Source of the DNA: Cyanobacteria bacterium FACHB-63
GTDB taxonomy: Bacteria; Cyanobacteriota; Cyanobacteriia; Leptolyngbyales; Leptolyngbyaceae
Reading direction: 5' to 3'
DNA: 64,000 nt
Assembly: GCA_014695255.1 (NCBI GenBank)
Contig: JACJNX010000064.1
Location: 124,001-188,000, forward strand
Position numbers and translations under genes: made by a program. The first letter of the stretch is position 1, and each line of letters opens with the position of its first letter. Positions 6,966 through 51,383 of the stretch are shown here, piece after piece. A model generated the notes under the pieces. The model searched no databases, was not told where the DNA came from, and saw only the letters and a program-made list of their open reading frames with translations.

Positions 6966-7565
6966 TCAGGAAGTTTGTCTTCTTCTACTGCTTAAGCCAA
7001 CTAATCCAGCAAGCCCTAAAACGCCCAATAGTCCCCAGTTGCCGCCAGAGTCTTGATTGCTCCCTGCGGTCGAGGTGGTAGCACCCGCAGGAGAAGTCGT
7101 AGTTGCACCTGTATTTCCGCTTGGGTCAGTCGTTCCTGCCCCAGAAACGCCTCCGGTTCCAGTTGTTCCGGTCGTCCCCGTAGTTCCGGTTCCAGTTGTT
7201 CCAGTTGTTCCGGTGCCTGTCGTTCCGGTACCTGATGCTCCGACACCTGCACCTGTTGCATCTGTACCTGCCGCTCCAGTTCCAGTCGTTCCCGAACTTC
7301 CTGTCGTGCCGGTTCCCGTAGTTCCGGCTCCAGTCGTTCCCGCAGTTCCTGAACTTCCAGTTCCAGTCGTTCCGGTGCCGGTCGTGCCAGTTGTTCCGGT
7401 CGTCCCGGTGCCGGTCGTGCCGTTTGTAGAGCCAGCAGTCCCACTGCCTGACGAGCTACCCGAACCACTGCTTTGAGCGACAGCGGGTAATCCCAACGGC
7501 AAGGTTGCAAGACCGATCGCTAACGCACTTGCAGACAGAATTTTAGGCAAATTCGATCGTGTCAT
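6966..7565 (-). CDS. Thr/Gly-repeat WGxxGxxG-type surface protein
   Basis: A 199-residue protein with a signal peptide ([20 protein letters not shown], cleavage likely at PAVAQ-SS), a middle of about 110 residues that is nearly all TGTTGTTGTG-type repeats, and an end comprising [21 protein letters not shown]. That tail (WGxxGxxG, hydrophobic stretch, basic residues) matches the sorting signal of WGxxGxxG-CTERM proteins. I infer an exported, possibly cell-surface-anchored protein. The repetitive DNA also leaves open frames on the opposite strand (7057-7476), which I judge to be shadows. Repeat number probably varies between strains. Confidence 0.82.
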
Positions 7566-23906: not shown

Positions 23907-26123
23907 TCAGTGCAATCCGGCAAGTCTTCTCACCTGCTGATTCTCTGGGTGCGATTGCTGCTGTAGTGGAATTCGGACAATGAACTCTGTTTCTCCAGTG
24001 GTGGAAAAACACTCCAGTTTGCCGTGATGTTGCTCGGTCACGATTTGATAACTGATTGCCATTCCCATTCCGGTTCCTTTACCTAAAGATTTCGTGGTGA
24101 AGAATGGATCAAAAATCCGTTGCTGAACGGCTGGAGGAATACCACATCCATTATCGATGATTGCTACCTCAACCCATGCTGTATCAATAATCGAAGTGCG
24201 AATTGTAATTTGACCAAGATTGTTGTTGATCGCTTGCTTTGCAATGTTGTCCTCGATTGCGTCGATCGCATTCACCAAAATATTCATAAACACTTGGTTG
24301 ATTTGTCCCGCATAACATTCGACGTGCGGTAAAGTTGCGTAGTCTTTGATTACCTTAATCTCCGATCGACAAGAGGTCGCTTTAAGGCGGTGCTGTAAAA
24401 TCAGCAGTGTACTATCGATACCTTCGTGGATATCGACCTCTTTGTACTCGGCTTCATCCATACGCGAGAAAGTCCGTAAAGACAGCACAATTTGGCGAAT
24501 TCGATCGGTTCCAAGTTGCATCGAAGACAAGGTTTTCGGCAGGTCTTGCTGCAAGAACTCTAGATCAATGTCTTCAGACAGGGTTTGAATTTCAGTGACA
24601 GGATTGGGATAATAGTGTTGGTACAACTGCACGAATGCTAATAAATCCTGAGTGTATTCCGCAATATGCTTAAGGTTGCCGTGAATAAAGTTGACAGGGT
24701 TGTTAATCTCATGAGCAGCTCCAGCAACCAATTGCCCCAAGCTCGACATTTTCTCGCTCTGCACCATTTGAGCTTGAGTTCGCTGCAATTCTGCCAACGC
24801 ATCCTTTAGCTTAGCGGTGCGCTCCTCGACGCGATCTTCTAATTCGTTCTTGCTGTGCTCTAGTGCGGTGAATAGCTCATTTAGCCGTCCTGCCATGTGG
24901 TTGAAAGAGTTAGATAAAGCGTTGAGTTCGTTAATATTGCTGGGCTCTACAGTTTGGTCAAGATGACCCACGGCGATCGCTTCACTCGCTCGATTGAGGC
25001 GAAGAATCGGACGAGCAATCCAACGAGATGTGAAGACTCCCATGATCGAGGCAATCACTAATGCACTAAAACAGAGTGCGATCGTAGTACGTGTATTCGC
25101 ATTGATCTGTGCCATAAATGTGTTTTCAGGCACACTCATAACCAGAAGCCAGTCCAAGCCGTACTCATCATGCCAAGGCATCACAGTGACGAAATGCTGT
25201 TCCCCCTGTATTTCTAACTGAAATTTCTTGTTCTCAGTAATGGACTGCAATCTGTTAGAGGTTTGAATTTGTCTTGCAATGGTTTGAACAACGGGATTGG
25301 AGCTATCGATCGCTCGTAATCGCTGAATTTTCTCATTTATAACGGTAAAGGGCTTTTCTGAACCAGAGTTCGCAATCAAGGTGCCATCCCGCTCGATAAG
25401 GAATACTTGTCCAGATTCACTGATATCTAAACTGCGAAGGAAATCGCTGAGTTTCAATAGATGAATGTCAATCGCAATCATTCCTAACAAGCGATTTTGA
25501 GCATCATAGATCGGTCGGCTCGCAGAAGCAGCAATGTAAGGACCTGTCGGATACATTCCTGTGATCATCTTTGTCCAAATCGGCTTAGCCGCAGCGATCG
25601 GTTGGGTATACCAGGATTCCTTAGCGTTCTCATAGTCCCAACGAGAATTGACCTGAGTTCGGTTGCCTTGATTATCAACTGTATAGGTTGTCACGTTGTT
25701 AGGAAGCTTGGCAGTCCAATCATCAATGGTAATTGTTTTGCCATCATAACGGGCGACTCCAATTCCCTCACCTGTGGTCAATCCAATTCCAATATAAGTT
25801 AAGTCATACGCTCTAATTTGATCCCAAAAGTATTTACTGATAAATTCACGCTCGCCTACATTTAATATTCCTCTTCGAATGGCATCAGCATTCATCTGAT
25901 TGAGCTTTTGAGGAGCGGCAAGATAAGACTTCAGGTGCTCGTTGACGACATCGCTGGTACGATCGACAAGTTGTCCCGCTAGATTGTTGACCGCGCTTTG
26001 TCCATTTTTGAACGACAGATAACCGACGAGGCTCACGGCTGCAAAAGTCTGGAGAACAAAGGGAACAACGAGAACTAACTGTAATGGAAATGCTTTATCT
26101 TTTGCGAGTTGCCGGAACTTCAT
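23907..26123 (-). CDS. Cache-HAMP sensor histidine kinase
   Basis: A 738-residue membrane kinase. One helix (about 14-36), a large extracytoplasmic dCache domain to about 335 (YIGIGLTTGEGIGVARYDG, WYTQPIAAAKPIWTK, GPYIAASASRPIYD, LLGMIAIDIHL), a second helix (about 346-366), HAMP (about 367-420), a coiled coil (420-460), the phospho-acceptor block GQLVAGAAHEINNPVNFIHG with H471, and HATPase_c with NQVFMNILVNAIDAI, DNGCGIP and GKGTGMGMAISYQI. Cache domains sense small ligands such as amino acids or carboxylates; the ligand is unknown. No response regulator gene is adjacent. The start is the ATG at 26123 rather than 26147, where the family's basic lead begins. Confidence 0.93.
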   Translation of the reverse strand: MKFRQLAKDKAFPLQLVLVVPFVLQTFAAVSLVGYLSFKNGQSAVNNLAGQLVDRTSDVVNEHLKSYLAAPQKLNQMNADAIRRGILNVGEREFISKYFWDQIRAYDLTYIGIGLTTGEGIGVARYDGKTITIDDWTAKLPNNVTTYTVDNQGNRTQVNSRWDYENAKESWYTQPIAAAKPIWTKMITGMYPTGPYIAASASRPIYDAQNRLLGMIAIDIHLLKLSDFLRSLDISESGQVFLIERDGTLIANSGSEKPFTVINEKIQRLRAIDSSNPVVQTIARQIQTSNRLQSITENKKFQLEIQGEQHFVTVMPWHDEYGLDWLLVMSVPENTFMAQINANTRTTIALCFSALVIASIMGVFTSRWIARPILRLNRASEAIAVGHLDQTVEPSNINELNALSNSFNHMAGRLNELFTALEHSKNELEDRVEERTAKLKDALAELQRTQAQMVQSEKMSSLGQLVAGAAHEINNPVNFIHGNLKHIAEYTQDLLAFVQLYQHYYPNPVTEIQTLSEDIDLEFLQQDLPKTLSSMQLGTDRIRQIVLSLRTFSRMDEAEYKEVDIHEGIDSTLLILQHRLKATSCRSEIKVIKDYATLPHVECYAGQINQVFMNILVNAIDAIEDNIAKQAINNNLGQITIRTSIIDTAWVEVAIIDNGCGIPPAVQQRIFDPFFTTKSLGKGTGMGMAISYQIVTEQHHGKLECFSTTGETEFIVRIPLQQQSHPENQQVRRLAGLH

Positions 26124-47601: not shown

Positions 47602-48909
47602 ATGACTGCTTCTGTTGCTTCAGGTTCACTCACCACACTCGCACAGCAAACCCAAAATGCAGCGCGTCAGCTTGCGGTGCAGCCGACTGAGAAGCGAAAC
47701 GAGGCAATCGCGAAGGTTGCTGATGCGCTTGAAGCGAATGCAGCAGAAATTTTGGCGGCGAATGCGACGGACTGTGAGGCAGCAAAGGTAGAAGGGATTT
47801 CTTCGGCGCTGTATGCGCGATTGAAGTTGGATGAAGCGAAATTAAAGGGCGCGATCGTTGGGGTGCGCGATGTTGGTAAGCTGGCTGATCCGATCGGAGC
47901 CGTTCAGATTCATCGTGAACTTGATGAAGGTTTGATCCTTAAGCGGATGACTTGTCCGTTGGGTGTATTAGGCGTGATCTTTGAGGCGCGACCGGATGCG
48001 GTGATGCAGATTTCAAGCCTTGCGATTAAGTCGGGAAATGGGGTGATTCTCAAAGGTGGGAAAGAAGCGATTCGATCGTGTGAAGCCTTAGTAAAAGCCA
48101 TTCATCAGGGATTGACCAACGCGGTAATTGATCCGGCTGTTGTGCAATTGCTGACAACACGCGAGGAAACACTAGAGTTATTGAAACTCGATCAGTATGT
48201 GGATCTGATTATTCCACGCGGATCAAACTCGTTTGTGAAATTTGTGCAGGATAATACGCGGATTCCAGTGTTAGGTCATGCCGATGGAATCTGTCATTTA
48301 TACGTCGATCGTGCTGCTGATATTGGGAAAGCAATCAAAATTGCCGTTGATTCTAAAACGCAATATCCTGCGGCTTGTAATGCGATCGAAACCTTGTTAG
48401 TGCATTCTGCGATCGCATCAGAATTTCTGCTCGAAGCGGTTTCAGCATTACAAGCAAAGAATGTTGAACTGCGAGGAGATGAACGCACCCGCGAAATTTT
48501 GAATATTGCAGCAGCAACCGAAACAGACTGGTCAACGGAATACAGCGATCTAATTTTGGCGATCAAGATTGTAGATTCAACCGAAGACGCGATCGCGCAT
48601 ATCAATACTTATGGATCGAAGCATACAGATGCGATCGTGACTGAAGATGCAAAAACTGCACAGTTGTTTATGAATCAAGTCGATGCAGCAGGCGTGTATC
48701 ATAACTGTTCGACGCGATTTGCGGATGGGTTTCGATATGGATTTGGGGCGGAAGTTGGCATCAGTACGCAAAAAATGCCGCCGCGAGGTCCTGTTGGGCT
48801 TGAAGGATTAGTGACCTACAAATATCAATTAGTCGGGGACGGACAAATTGCGGCCACCTATGCGGGAGCCAATGCGAAACCGTTTACGCATCGTGATTTG
48901 TCGGTTTGA
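47602..48909 (+). CDS. proA: Glutamate-5-semialdehyde dehydrogenase
   Basis: A 435-residue enzyme that reduces glutamyl-5-phosphate to the semialdehyde for proline synthesis. [72 protein letters not shown] (active-site Cys), [20 protein letters not shown] and [15 protein letters not shown] are all typical of GPR. No proB is adjacent. The stop is followed at once by a repeat and palindrome block. Confidence 0.96.
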
Positions 48910-48920
48910 TCAATTCTGTC

Positions 48921-49088
48921 GCTCAACTTAATCACGGAATTGCTCAACTTAATCACGGAATTGCTCAACTCGATTCAACAGATGCAAAATCAAGTTATGC
49001 AATTTCTCAACTTGATGCGGAACTTCTGATCTTGATTACAGAATTTCTCAACTTGATTTTGAATGTGCTGAATCAAGTTGAGAAATTC
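48921..49088 (+). repeat. Repeat block with multiple palindromes after proA
   Basis: Two exact 21-base units stand side by side at 48921-48941 and 48942-48962, and a third begins at 48963 and decays. The core CTCAACTT(A/G)AT recurs to 49058 in both orientations. ATCAAGTT at 48989 pairs with AACTTGAT at 49009. A perfect 18-base inverted repeat has arms at 49041-49058 and 49071-49088 with a 12-base loop. The core appears in different reading frames, so this is a DNA- or RNA-level element rather than a peptide repeat, although one frame stays open for 95 codons. Confidence 0.7.
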
Positions 49089-49114
49089 GCTGATTCAATG
49101 AAGAAATTACAACG

Positions 49115-50032
49115 ATGCAACAATCCATTCCGATCGCTGATCTTCAATCTTTTCTATCCGACGATCCAATCCAACAGCAGGATTTCGTGCTGACGATCGG
49201 CAAGGCTTTAGAAGACATTGGCTTTTTTGCCTTGATTAATCATGGGGTCGATCGCACCCTCATTCAACGCGCCTATCAACTTGCCGAAGCATTCTTTGAG
49301 CTACCCGCAGACGTGAAATTACGCTACGAAGATCCGAACCTGAATGGACAGCGAGGATTTACGCGCTTTGGCAAAGAACACGCGAAAGATCATCCTGTCC
49401 CAGATCTCAAAGAATTCTGGCACGTCGGGCGCGAAGGTCATTTAGCAAACCTTAATCCGATCGAAATTCCTGAGTTTCGATCGACGATGAACCAGCTATA
49501 CGCCCAACTCGAACACTGCGCCGTCAAACTGCTTGAAGCTTGTGCCTTGTTTCTAGGAGAGCCGCGATCGTTTCTCAGCAACATGACGATCAATGCCGAT
49601 ACCATTCTGCGAATCATTCACTATCCGCCCATTCCAGAGAATGTTGATCCTGCAAGTTTACGATCGGCTCCCCACGAAGATATCAATCTCATCACTCTAC
49701 TCTGTGAAGCAACCGAGAGCGGCTTAGAGTTATTGCAGCGTGATGGAACTTGGAAAGCCATTCCAAATGTCGAAGGTCAAATCATTGTCGATAGCGGGGA
49801 TATGTTGCAGCAACTCACAAATGGCTTGCTCAAAAGTACAACCCATCGAGTTGTGAATCCAGGAGATCGATCTCGCCGATTTTCGATGCCATTTTTCGTG
49901 CATCCCACCAGCAAAACCGATCTTACGCCGCTTCAGGGCTGCATTGATCGCACAGGTGGAGCAACCAAATTTCCCAAAATCACCGCAGGCGAATATTTAC
50001 AGCAGCGACTTGCCGAAATCGGGCTGAAATAA
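49115..50032 (+). CDS. 2-oxoglutarate/Fe(II) oxygenase of the isopenicillin N synthase family
   Basis: A 305-residue enzyme. An N-terminal DIOX_N region (IPIADLQSFL, IGFFALINHGVD, AEAFFELPADVKLRYE, GQRGFTRFGKEHAKDHPVPD) is followed by the double-stranded beta-helix with the iron triad in SAPHEDINLITLL (His, Asp) and KSTTHRVVNP (His), and the 2-oxoglutarate Arg in RSRRFSMPFF. Substrates of these bacterial proteins are mostly unknown; plant relatives act on hormones and flavonoids. It starts 26 bases behind the palindrome block following proA. Confidence 0.9.
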   Translation: MQQSIPIADLQSFLSDDPIQQQDFVLTIGKALEDIGFFALINHGVDRTLIQRAYQLAEAFFELPADVKLRYEDPNLNGQRGFTRFGKEHAKDHPVPDLKEFWHVGREGHLANLNPIEIPEFRSTMNQLYAQLEHCAVKLLEACALFLGEPRSFLSNMTINADTILRIIHYPPIPENVDPASLRSAPHEDINLITLLCEATESGLELLQRDGTWKAIPNVEGQIIVDSGDMLQQLTNGLLKSTTHRVVNPGDRSRRFSMPFFVHPTSKTDLTPLQGCIDRTGGATKFPKITAGEYLQQRLAEIGLK

Positions 50033-50574: not shown

Positions 50575-51147
50575 ATGAAGCACGCACTCAAGGAATGGTC
50601 GATCGCAATCAAAGCTTTGGAGCAGGGAGAAACGATTTTGCTGCTTCGCAAAGGTGGGATTCGCGAAGAGCAGGGACGATTTGAGGTGCCGTTTCGTAGA
50701 GTCTTGCTGTATCCAACCTACGAGCATCAAGACCCTGCCTTACTCAAGCAACCGAATTTAGTCGATCGCGTTGAATCCGGTTGGCATCCTGAAACGATTG
50801 AGATAAGTTCGATCGCCGACATTACTGATGTATTTCAAGTGAGTGATGCGGAGGTGGTGCGATCGTTGCTGCCGTTTCACATCTGGAACGATCGGTTTGT
50901 CGAAGAACGATTGAAGTGGAAACCGCGATCGCCGTTGTATTTACTGCTGCTGCGGGTGTTTCGCTTGCCGCAACCGCAAAAGATTGGTTATCAAGAAGCA
51001 TATGGCGGATGTCGATCGTGGATTGAAATCGAAGATGTGGCGATTGATCAAACAACCCCAGTGCTGAGTGAGGCGGAATATCAGGAGCGGGTTGGTGAGA
51101 TTCGATCAATTGTGGAGCGATCAGCAATCCAACAGTTTCTAACTTGA
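50575..51147 (+). CDS. DUF1802-family protein
   Basis: A 190-residue soluble protein starting MKHALKEWSIAIKALEQGET, then LLLRKGGIREEQGRFEVPFR, LYPTYEHQDPALLK, FHIWNDRFVEERLKWKPRSP and LLLRVFRLPQ, the pattern of DUF1802, found in cyanobacteria, actinobacteria and archaea without known function. The ATG at 50575 follows the membrane-protein stop by two bases; a longer frame from 50362 overlaps that gene and is rejected. The last nine bases overlap the convergent coiled-coil gene. Confidence 0.83.
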   Translation: MKHALKEWSIAIKALEQGETILLLRKGGIREEQGRFEVPFRRVLLYPTYEHQDPALLKQPNLVDRVESGWHPETIEISSIADITDVFQVSDAEVVRSLLPFHIWNDRFVEERLKWKPRSPLYLLLLRVFRLPQPQKIGYQEAYGGCRSWIEIEDVAIDQTTPVLSEAEYQERVGEIRSIVERSAIQQFLT

Positions 51148-51339
51148 ACGACGCTCTTGAATCAACGTCTCTACAATTCCAACTAAGCGATCGATGTTAC
51201 GCTCTTGGCGCTCCGACGCAGCTTTCAGTTCAGTAAAACCACTCTCCACTGTCATGCGGAGTTCAGTAATGCTTTCGGTCATGCGTCCGATTTGATCAAT
51301 AAGAATTTCAATTTTTTCGCTGTTACTCAGTTGAGCCAT
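51139..51339 (-). CDS. Short coiled-coil protein
   Basis: A 66-residue protein, MAQLSNSEKIEILIDQIGRM, then TESITELRMTVESGFTELKA and ERNIDRLVGIVETLIQE: heptad spacing of I/L/V throughout, so a single amphipathic coiled coil. Similar short proteins are common in cyanobacteria and are often annotated only as hypothetical. I use the ATG at 51339, since the longer start at 51375 adds residues that do not fit the heptads. Its end overlaps the DUF1802 gene by nine bases. Confidence 0.6.
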   Translation of the reverse strand: MAQLSNSEKIEILIDQIGRMTESITELRMTVESGFTELKAASERQERNIDRLVGIVETLIQERRSS

Positions 51340-51383
51340 ACGGGATTCTAGATTGAGCGAAATCGGGTATAGCACTACCTTAA

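Follow-up and report, generated by a model that had tools for sequence, protein, structure and literature searches.

Is the palindrome-rich repeat block behind proA a terminator, a small RNA, a gene, or a copy of something that belongs elsewhere? The block was found in the window (the whole stretch of DNA analysed, 64,000 nucleotides), in the 205-nt spacer that separates proA from a 2OG-Fe(II) oxygenase gene; both genes are read on the + strand. The left neighbour (47602-48909) carries the name proA from the sequence-only reading. Most of the spacer is filled by the array.

Position and build of the repeat block

The features are as follows.
47602-48909, + strand: proA, left neighbour, outside the array class
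48917-48979, + strand: three forward 21-nt units (starts 48917, 48938, 48959), with an exact tandem at 48921-48970
48984-49004, - strand: single unit in reverse orientation
49001-49062, + strand: three forward units (starts 49001, 49021, 49042), with one 20-nt interval
49041-49088, no strand: perfect 18-bp inverted repeat, arms 49041-49058 and 49071-49088, 12-nt loop
49067-49108, - strand: two units in reverse orientation, namely the hairpin's right arm and the unit next to it
49115-50032, + strand: 2OG-Fe(II) oxygenase gene, right neighbour, outside the array class

The block is real and non-random. An exact 21-base tandem had been claimed for this place, and Tandem Repeats Finder recovers it at 48921-48970 (period 21, 2.4 copies, 100% match), together with a second run at 49001-49058 (period 21, 2.8 copies, 76%). 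Unit cores in both orientations had likewise been described; they are present on both strands from 48917 to 49108, with + strand spacings of 21, 21, 42, 20 and 21 nt. The perfect 18-base inverted repeat with a 12-base loop was also correctly read, and the whole block forms a 67-nt inverted repeat, 78% complementary. The folding calculation that had been proposed was run: predicted folding beats all 200 dinucleotide shuffles on both strands (z -4.99 and -4.75). Units run head to tail at 21-nt spacing and are not parted by unique spacers, as the repeats of a CRISPR are.

The proA-array-oxygenase junction was found only in the source species and one sister species (G006) among the relatives compared. 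In G006 the array is met at the same junction by two overlapping matches of 91% and 86% identity; the two arrays are insertions of about one and two units apart. An array of like kind behind proA is absent, by eye, in 18 other genomes, and none of the other oxygenase loci compared has proA in the flank that precedes the oxygenase gene.

Coding, terminator and RNA tests

A 95-codon frame opening with TTG runs over the block. It is not kept, because in the sister species the TTG start is missing and the length of the lead-in is altered (16 nt vs. 14 nt). Before the hairpin, window and sister differ in this frame by 2 synonymous and 5 non-synonymous changes (counted by eye; too few for a test), and the alignment gives no sign of codon-level conservation. 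The view of the block as non-coding and repeat-like is borne out.

No terminator-like site (shuffled mean 0.2) and no promoter-like site is found in 48850-49150, and a G+C-rich stem followed by a T run does not occur in the block. Over five array copies the window hairpin has 1 pair changed on both sides, against a shuffled mean of 0.8. A terminal hairpin common to these five copies was promising at first and was rejected, with 77.6% of cells paired vs. 78.2% after shuffling. A terminator or mRNA-stabilising hairpin array would suit the location behind proA and the strong predicted folding; with no terminator-like site, no compensatory changes and no such array behind proA in the 18 other genomes, this explanation is very improbable. 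The terminator array of the sequence-only reading finds no support, given the same site count and the occurrence of related arrays upstream of genes. For its other proposal, a small RNA, no positive evidence was obtained: in Rfam 15 the block does not reach a gathering score and yields sub-threshold matches only, mostly to plant and animal miRNA models, and the hairpin lacks covariation over the five copies. No evidence was found for the proA block as a terminator, coding gene or small RNA.

Copies of the unit elsewhere

The 12-base core CTCAACTTGATT alone is weak and poorly informative evidence; with one mismatch it occurs at 136 places in the genome vs. 48 for the reversed core. The genome search that had been suggested with this core becomes specific when a two-unit pattern at 21-nt spacing is used (9 matches in the own genome vs. 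0 for the pattern read backwards). Seven of the nine lie in the proA block and in an array at G000:C164; two are isolated and carry 3 mismatches. The proA-block unit has few copies in its own genome. Arrays with this unit occur at G000:C164 and at the syntenic places in G006 and G004, directly upstream of a gene for a 121-aa protein of family A. Scored against family-A unit profiles, the window block reaches 27.1, 25.1 and 22.9 bits for the family-A arrays of G000, G006 and G004; the next best profile gives 16.4 bits and the median is 9.2. By unit sequence the block is closest to the family-A array at G000:C164 and to the syntenic arrays of the congeners G006 and G004.

No gene or remnant of family A, or of a second family, B, was found near the proA block (44 queries; one weak match, window 25758-26012, E 0.007). 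The proA array is called solo because neither family has a gene beside it. The block is one solo example of a broader class of non-coding arrays whose period is nearly fixed at 21 nt; in filamentous cyanobacteria such arrays usually stand next to family-A or family-B genes. Solo arrays of like unit were also found next to TrkA and, in a more diverged form, next to LdpA in G006; by eye, a like-unit array is absent at TrkA in 5 other congeners having TrkA and at LdpA in 7 others.

Family A and its upstream arrays

Family A comprises small, helical, unannotated proteins of about 120 aa. It is present in 13 of 20 relatives (up to 13 matches each) and in 13 of 292 genomes of a phylum sample (up to 14 matches each), and has at least 433 relatives in named genomes. 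The best 80 of these, at least 433 in all, bear cyanobacterial names (Nostoc, Leptolyngbya, Nodosilinea, Tolypothrix, others) with one exception, a MAG labelled Chitinophagaceae. As the best matches, these 80 loci lean towards the subfamily of the query; the 20 whole-genome loci are broader. Gene starts of family loci were taken from the matches and are approximate.

When the lag may vary freely, self-similarity over the 600 nt upstream of family-A genes peaks at 20-21, 41-42 or 62-63 nt in 69/78 loci; of the 80 named loci, 78 were usable upstream and 77 downstream, the rest being too short. Self-similarity of 0.55 or more is found at 63/78 loci upstream, 2/77 downstream and 1/78 after shuffling. 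The upstream region of one locus (L269) is masked, and its high real and shuffled values are an artefact; the cleaner upstream count is 62/77. A run detector was applied to 100 loci, merged to 96, 92 of them testable. It finds an array upstream in 83/92, downstream in 4/92, far upstream in 3/68 and at control lags in 1/92; nine of the 92 loci are without an array.

The median array has about 10 units, and the median distance from array end to gene start is 156 nt. Unit intervals are 21 nt in 462 of 541 cases and 42, 63, 84 or 105 nt in 48 more; intervals of 20, 22 and 41 nt are occasional. Unit sequence varies between loci, spacing hardly. Unit similarity between loci climbs with protein identity and is near background below about 0.5 identity; at 50-60% protein identity, same-strand similarity exceeds opposite-strand similarity in 69% of 956 non-independent pairs. 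Eighteen Nostoc loci (between L242 and L287) share a conserved leader, about 150 nt ahead of the family-A start, in the stretch that separates the array from its gene. The leader contains a TATACT-like (promoter-like) box, with a hairpin in front of the start codon; of its 31 predicted pairs, 3 stay paired although both sides have changed. These 18 arrays hold 7 to 17 units.

Twenty-one nt equal seven codons and some arrays can be read as heptads, so that the block might be a remnant or fragment of a coiled-coil gene. Heptad-like frames are seen by eye in several arrays, and genuine coding 21-nt heptads exist in the genus (L158, L165). However, 36 distinct family-A array types show no three-base conservation pattern (P 0.40), open frames are not in excess (26 vs. 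28.5 expected), intervals of 20, 22 and 41 nt occur, and start and frame are lost in the sister species. Descent of the arrays from coiled-coil genes was rejected on the frame tests and is extremely improbable.

Folding falls below z -2 against column-permuted controls in 10/36 array types on the + strand and 9/36 on the - strand (means -1.18 and -1.32); the unit is palindromic in 1/36. RNA structure is a trait of a minority of array types, not the rule of the class, and the window block with its hairpins seems to belong to that minority. Selection on DNA or RNA structure had been suggested for the block; among the array types at large, selection on RNA structure is not general.

An active repeat RNA offers another explanation: the arrays would be transcribed, and the linked protein would bind or process their RNA in the manner of type III toxin-antitoxin systems, with the proA array as a stray copy. 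The position of arrays directly upstream (family A) or downstream (family B) of a small gene fits this, as does the folding of the window block and of the 10 and 9 array types given above. Most array types, however, lack a folding excess, no Rfam match was obtained in 20 loci, the promoter-like box of the Nostoc group lies between array and gene, and there is no confident match to a toxin-antitoxin or defence model; the window hairpin, as stated, does not covary. An RNA role of this kind is unlikely.

The AlphaFold model of family A is helical, with one helix of 54 residues; that of family B is helical, with one helix of 53 residues. Neither model has a Foldseek match in the PDB at E 0.001 or better. 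No confident family match was found for family A in Pfam, NCBIfam, PADLOC or PHROG. Matches of family A to Flagellin_N (below cut-off, 4/20 members), Med9 (1.4e-5, one member only) and a designed DARPin fusion (2e-5 over 27 residues, no single stretch passing) were rejected as chance hits of helix type. One family-A query gave no match in phage records, and viral contigs yielded no confirmed relative of either family. Plasmid records yielded one relative of family A and one of family B; a Nostoc family-A gene searched as DNA in plasmid records yielded none.

Family B and its downstream arrays

In 400 kb scanned of the own genome two non-coding arrays were found, one of them right behind a 162-aa gene, which represents family B. 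The array scan covered about 0.46 Mb of this genome; the run detector scores the window block itself as coding, owing to the 95-codon frame. Family B comprises small, helical, unannotated proteins of about 160 aa and is present in 14 of 30 genomes. The run detector places its arrays downstream in 27/29 and upstream in 2/29, with control lags giving 1/30 loci on either side. The free downstream lag is 21, 42-43 or 63-64 nt in 29/30, and self-similarity of 0.55 or more is reached in 28/30 downstream vs. 5/30 upstream. The family-B alignment (A2) comprises 24 of the 30 loci; a locus with an internal stop was left out, as were five that are near-duplicates or have unclear starts.

No confident match of family B was found in Pfam, NCBIfam or PADLOC. 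Dor1 (0.0027 in 1/24 members) and NCBIfam matches of 0.002 or weaker were taken as helix-type chance. Profile comparison detects no homology between families A and B (probability 1.4%). A family-B homologue outside the cyanobacteria (L340) is carried by plasmid pTs417 of Candidatus Thiodictyon syntrophicum (proteobacterial), between the arginine decarboxylase and pyruvate kinase genes, with 36.8% identity and no array. On the contig of the window itself, a family-B gene (L338, G000:C141:105446-105886) lies 18 kb left of the window and 67 kb from the proA block; its downstream 21-nt array has a unit quite unlike that of the proA block.

Scans of other genomes and neighbouring repeats

Two genomes without family-A or family-B matches, scanned over 400 kb each, have 0 and 1 (weak) 21-specific arrays. 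In 400 kb of G174, a genome with 14 family-A matches, four arrays were found, two of them beside family-A genes; a third family-A gene there is without a detected array, and one array lies by a TPR-like repeat frame. A perfect 21-nt array of G174 (L376, G174:C1:309092-309343) adjoins no family-A gene and is possibly solo or linked to a further family. In the G012 sample, control lags give 6 and 6 arrays vs. 7 at lag 21; a single lag-21 array in that genome proves little, because control-lag arrays are equally common.

Other repeats occur nearby and in relatives. A decayed non-coding repeat with a period of about 42 nt (L190:19172-19306, G000:C138:299172-299306) lies behind a serine protease gene, which we take to be DegP/HtrA-like; similar words also occur downstream of a family-A array (L058). 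On the - strand of the window, 51139-51375 holds a 78-aa coiled-coil-like frame, with longer relatives in congeners that have coding 21-nt heptad repeats (L158, L165). Coding and non-coding 21-nt repeats need to be separated, because both coexist. Tandem repeats of periods 9, 15, 24 and 48 overlap long frames at window 7152-7422 and, by period, are probably a repetitive protein segment.

Turnover of the array and origin of the hairpin

On its right side the hairpin has 30 nt that agree with the left 30 nt of the sister segment at 28/30 positions when reverse-complemented and at 18/30 in direct comparison, as local inverted copying in one of the two would predict. Such copying, in either direction, looks like the source of the perfect 18-bp inverted repeat; paralogous arrays carry a loop resembling that of the window, so that both directions are compatible. 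The suggestion of a young repeat element holds in part. The junction was found only in the source species and G006 and its unit number differs between them; the class itself occurs widely and is linked to particular protein genes.

The arrays might also be neutral minisatellites, i.e., functionless products of local slippage that stand near these genes by ancestry. Unit number differs between the sisters and among the Nostoc arrays, solo arrays occur, and unit sequences drift. Drift, however, would hardly yield side-specific linkage with two unrelated families together with a near-constant period over many units. For the proA copy by itself a neutral minisatellite is quite possible and a fair account; for the class it is a poor one, and for the arrays at large this origin is rather unlikely.

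Comparison with known systems

Iteron and centromere arrays (parC/ParR, plasmid iterons) are phased sites beside the gene of the binding protein. The gene-linked arrays share with them, in layout only, fixed helix-phased tandem sites beside a small-protein gene and a variable copy number. They differ in that families A and B match no named DNA-binding family, that several paralogous pairs with differing units occur per chromosome, and that the arrays lie upstream of A but downstream of B; binding by the linked proteins is putative. In type III toxin-antitoxin systems such as ToxIN the ToxI units are longer than 21 nt. Like these systems, family A has a tandem array just ahead of a small gene; it differs from ToxIN in its 21-nt units, in the promoter-like box between array and gene, and in a helical protein without toxin match in the PADLOC, Pfam, NCBIfam and PDB comparisons.

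REP elements are palindromic intergenic repeats associated with RAYT genes, some by a dedicated gene and some solo, and this arrangement is shared. Unlike them, the arrays are not one high-copy element, a palindromic unit is found in only one of the 36 array types, and none of the libraries searched gives families A and B a transposase-like match. Anabaena and Nostoc also have intergenic STRR tandem repeats with a unit of 7 nt; the LTRR unit is 37 nt long. LTRR are described as intergenic tandem repeats of Anabaena/Nostoc (PMC2408588). Common to LTRR, STRR and the present arrays is an intergenic tandem repeat in filamentous cyanobacteria; the present arrays have locus-specific units of a common 21-nt length and are tied to two protein families. 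TAACTGA heptamer arrays are described as intergenic direct repeats, also in Cyanobacteria, with a proposed binding protein (PMC4679880). As described there, they consist of one fixed 7-nt sequence before many genes, whereas many unit sequences of 21 nt and two gene families are found here. No paper on the gene-array pair was found in the one open-licence library searched, from which subscription journals are largely absent. Any novelty would lie in the gene-array class, not in the proA copy.

Proposed function

Observed are the lack of a conserved frame, a near-fixed 21-nt phase, side-specific linkage to two helical families, changing copy number and solo copies. With a probability of about one half, the array units are sites on the DNA, spaced by two helical turns, at which the linked protein binds, and the proA copy is an orphan. 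The units would be bound by the long-helix protein of family A, which has basic ends. A spacing of 21 bp corresponds to two turns of B-DNA and would set all sites on one face of the helix; such sites may allow cooperative loading of protein, as on iterons or a plasmid centromere, or form a platform beside the promoter of the gene itself. The proA array would be a dispersed or orphaned platform, with or without an effect on proA or the oxygenase gene. Its unit number would shift by slippage or unequal exchange, and its hairpin would stem from local inverted copying (template switch) between near-palindromic neighbours, not from selection for a terminator. As a counterpoint, the fixed unit length within family A could be plain inheritance kept by homogenisation.

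We tentatively propose an undescribed class in filamentous cyanobacteria: a multi-copy small helical protein with a cognate 21-bp array, paralogue-specific units and two-turn spacing, represented by two unrelated families, from which arrays may leave the gene and settle solo. The units of such a class would form sequence-private DNA-protein assemblies, e.g., chromosome landmarks, silencers or copy-counting loci.

Significance

The near-constant, side-specific pairing of two unannotated families with arrays of one period in many cyanobacteria suggests a functional unit that is invisible to protein-only annotation. Both families gain a concrete candidate partner, their own array. The pairing also offers an account of intergenic repeats that might otherwise be recorded as terminators, false CRISPRs or mere noise. 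If binding and phasing hold true, the pairs would represent a new way for bacterial chromosomes to build private DNA-protein assemblies.
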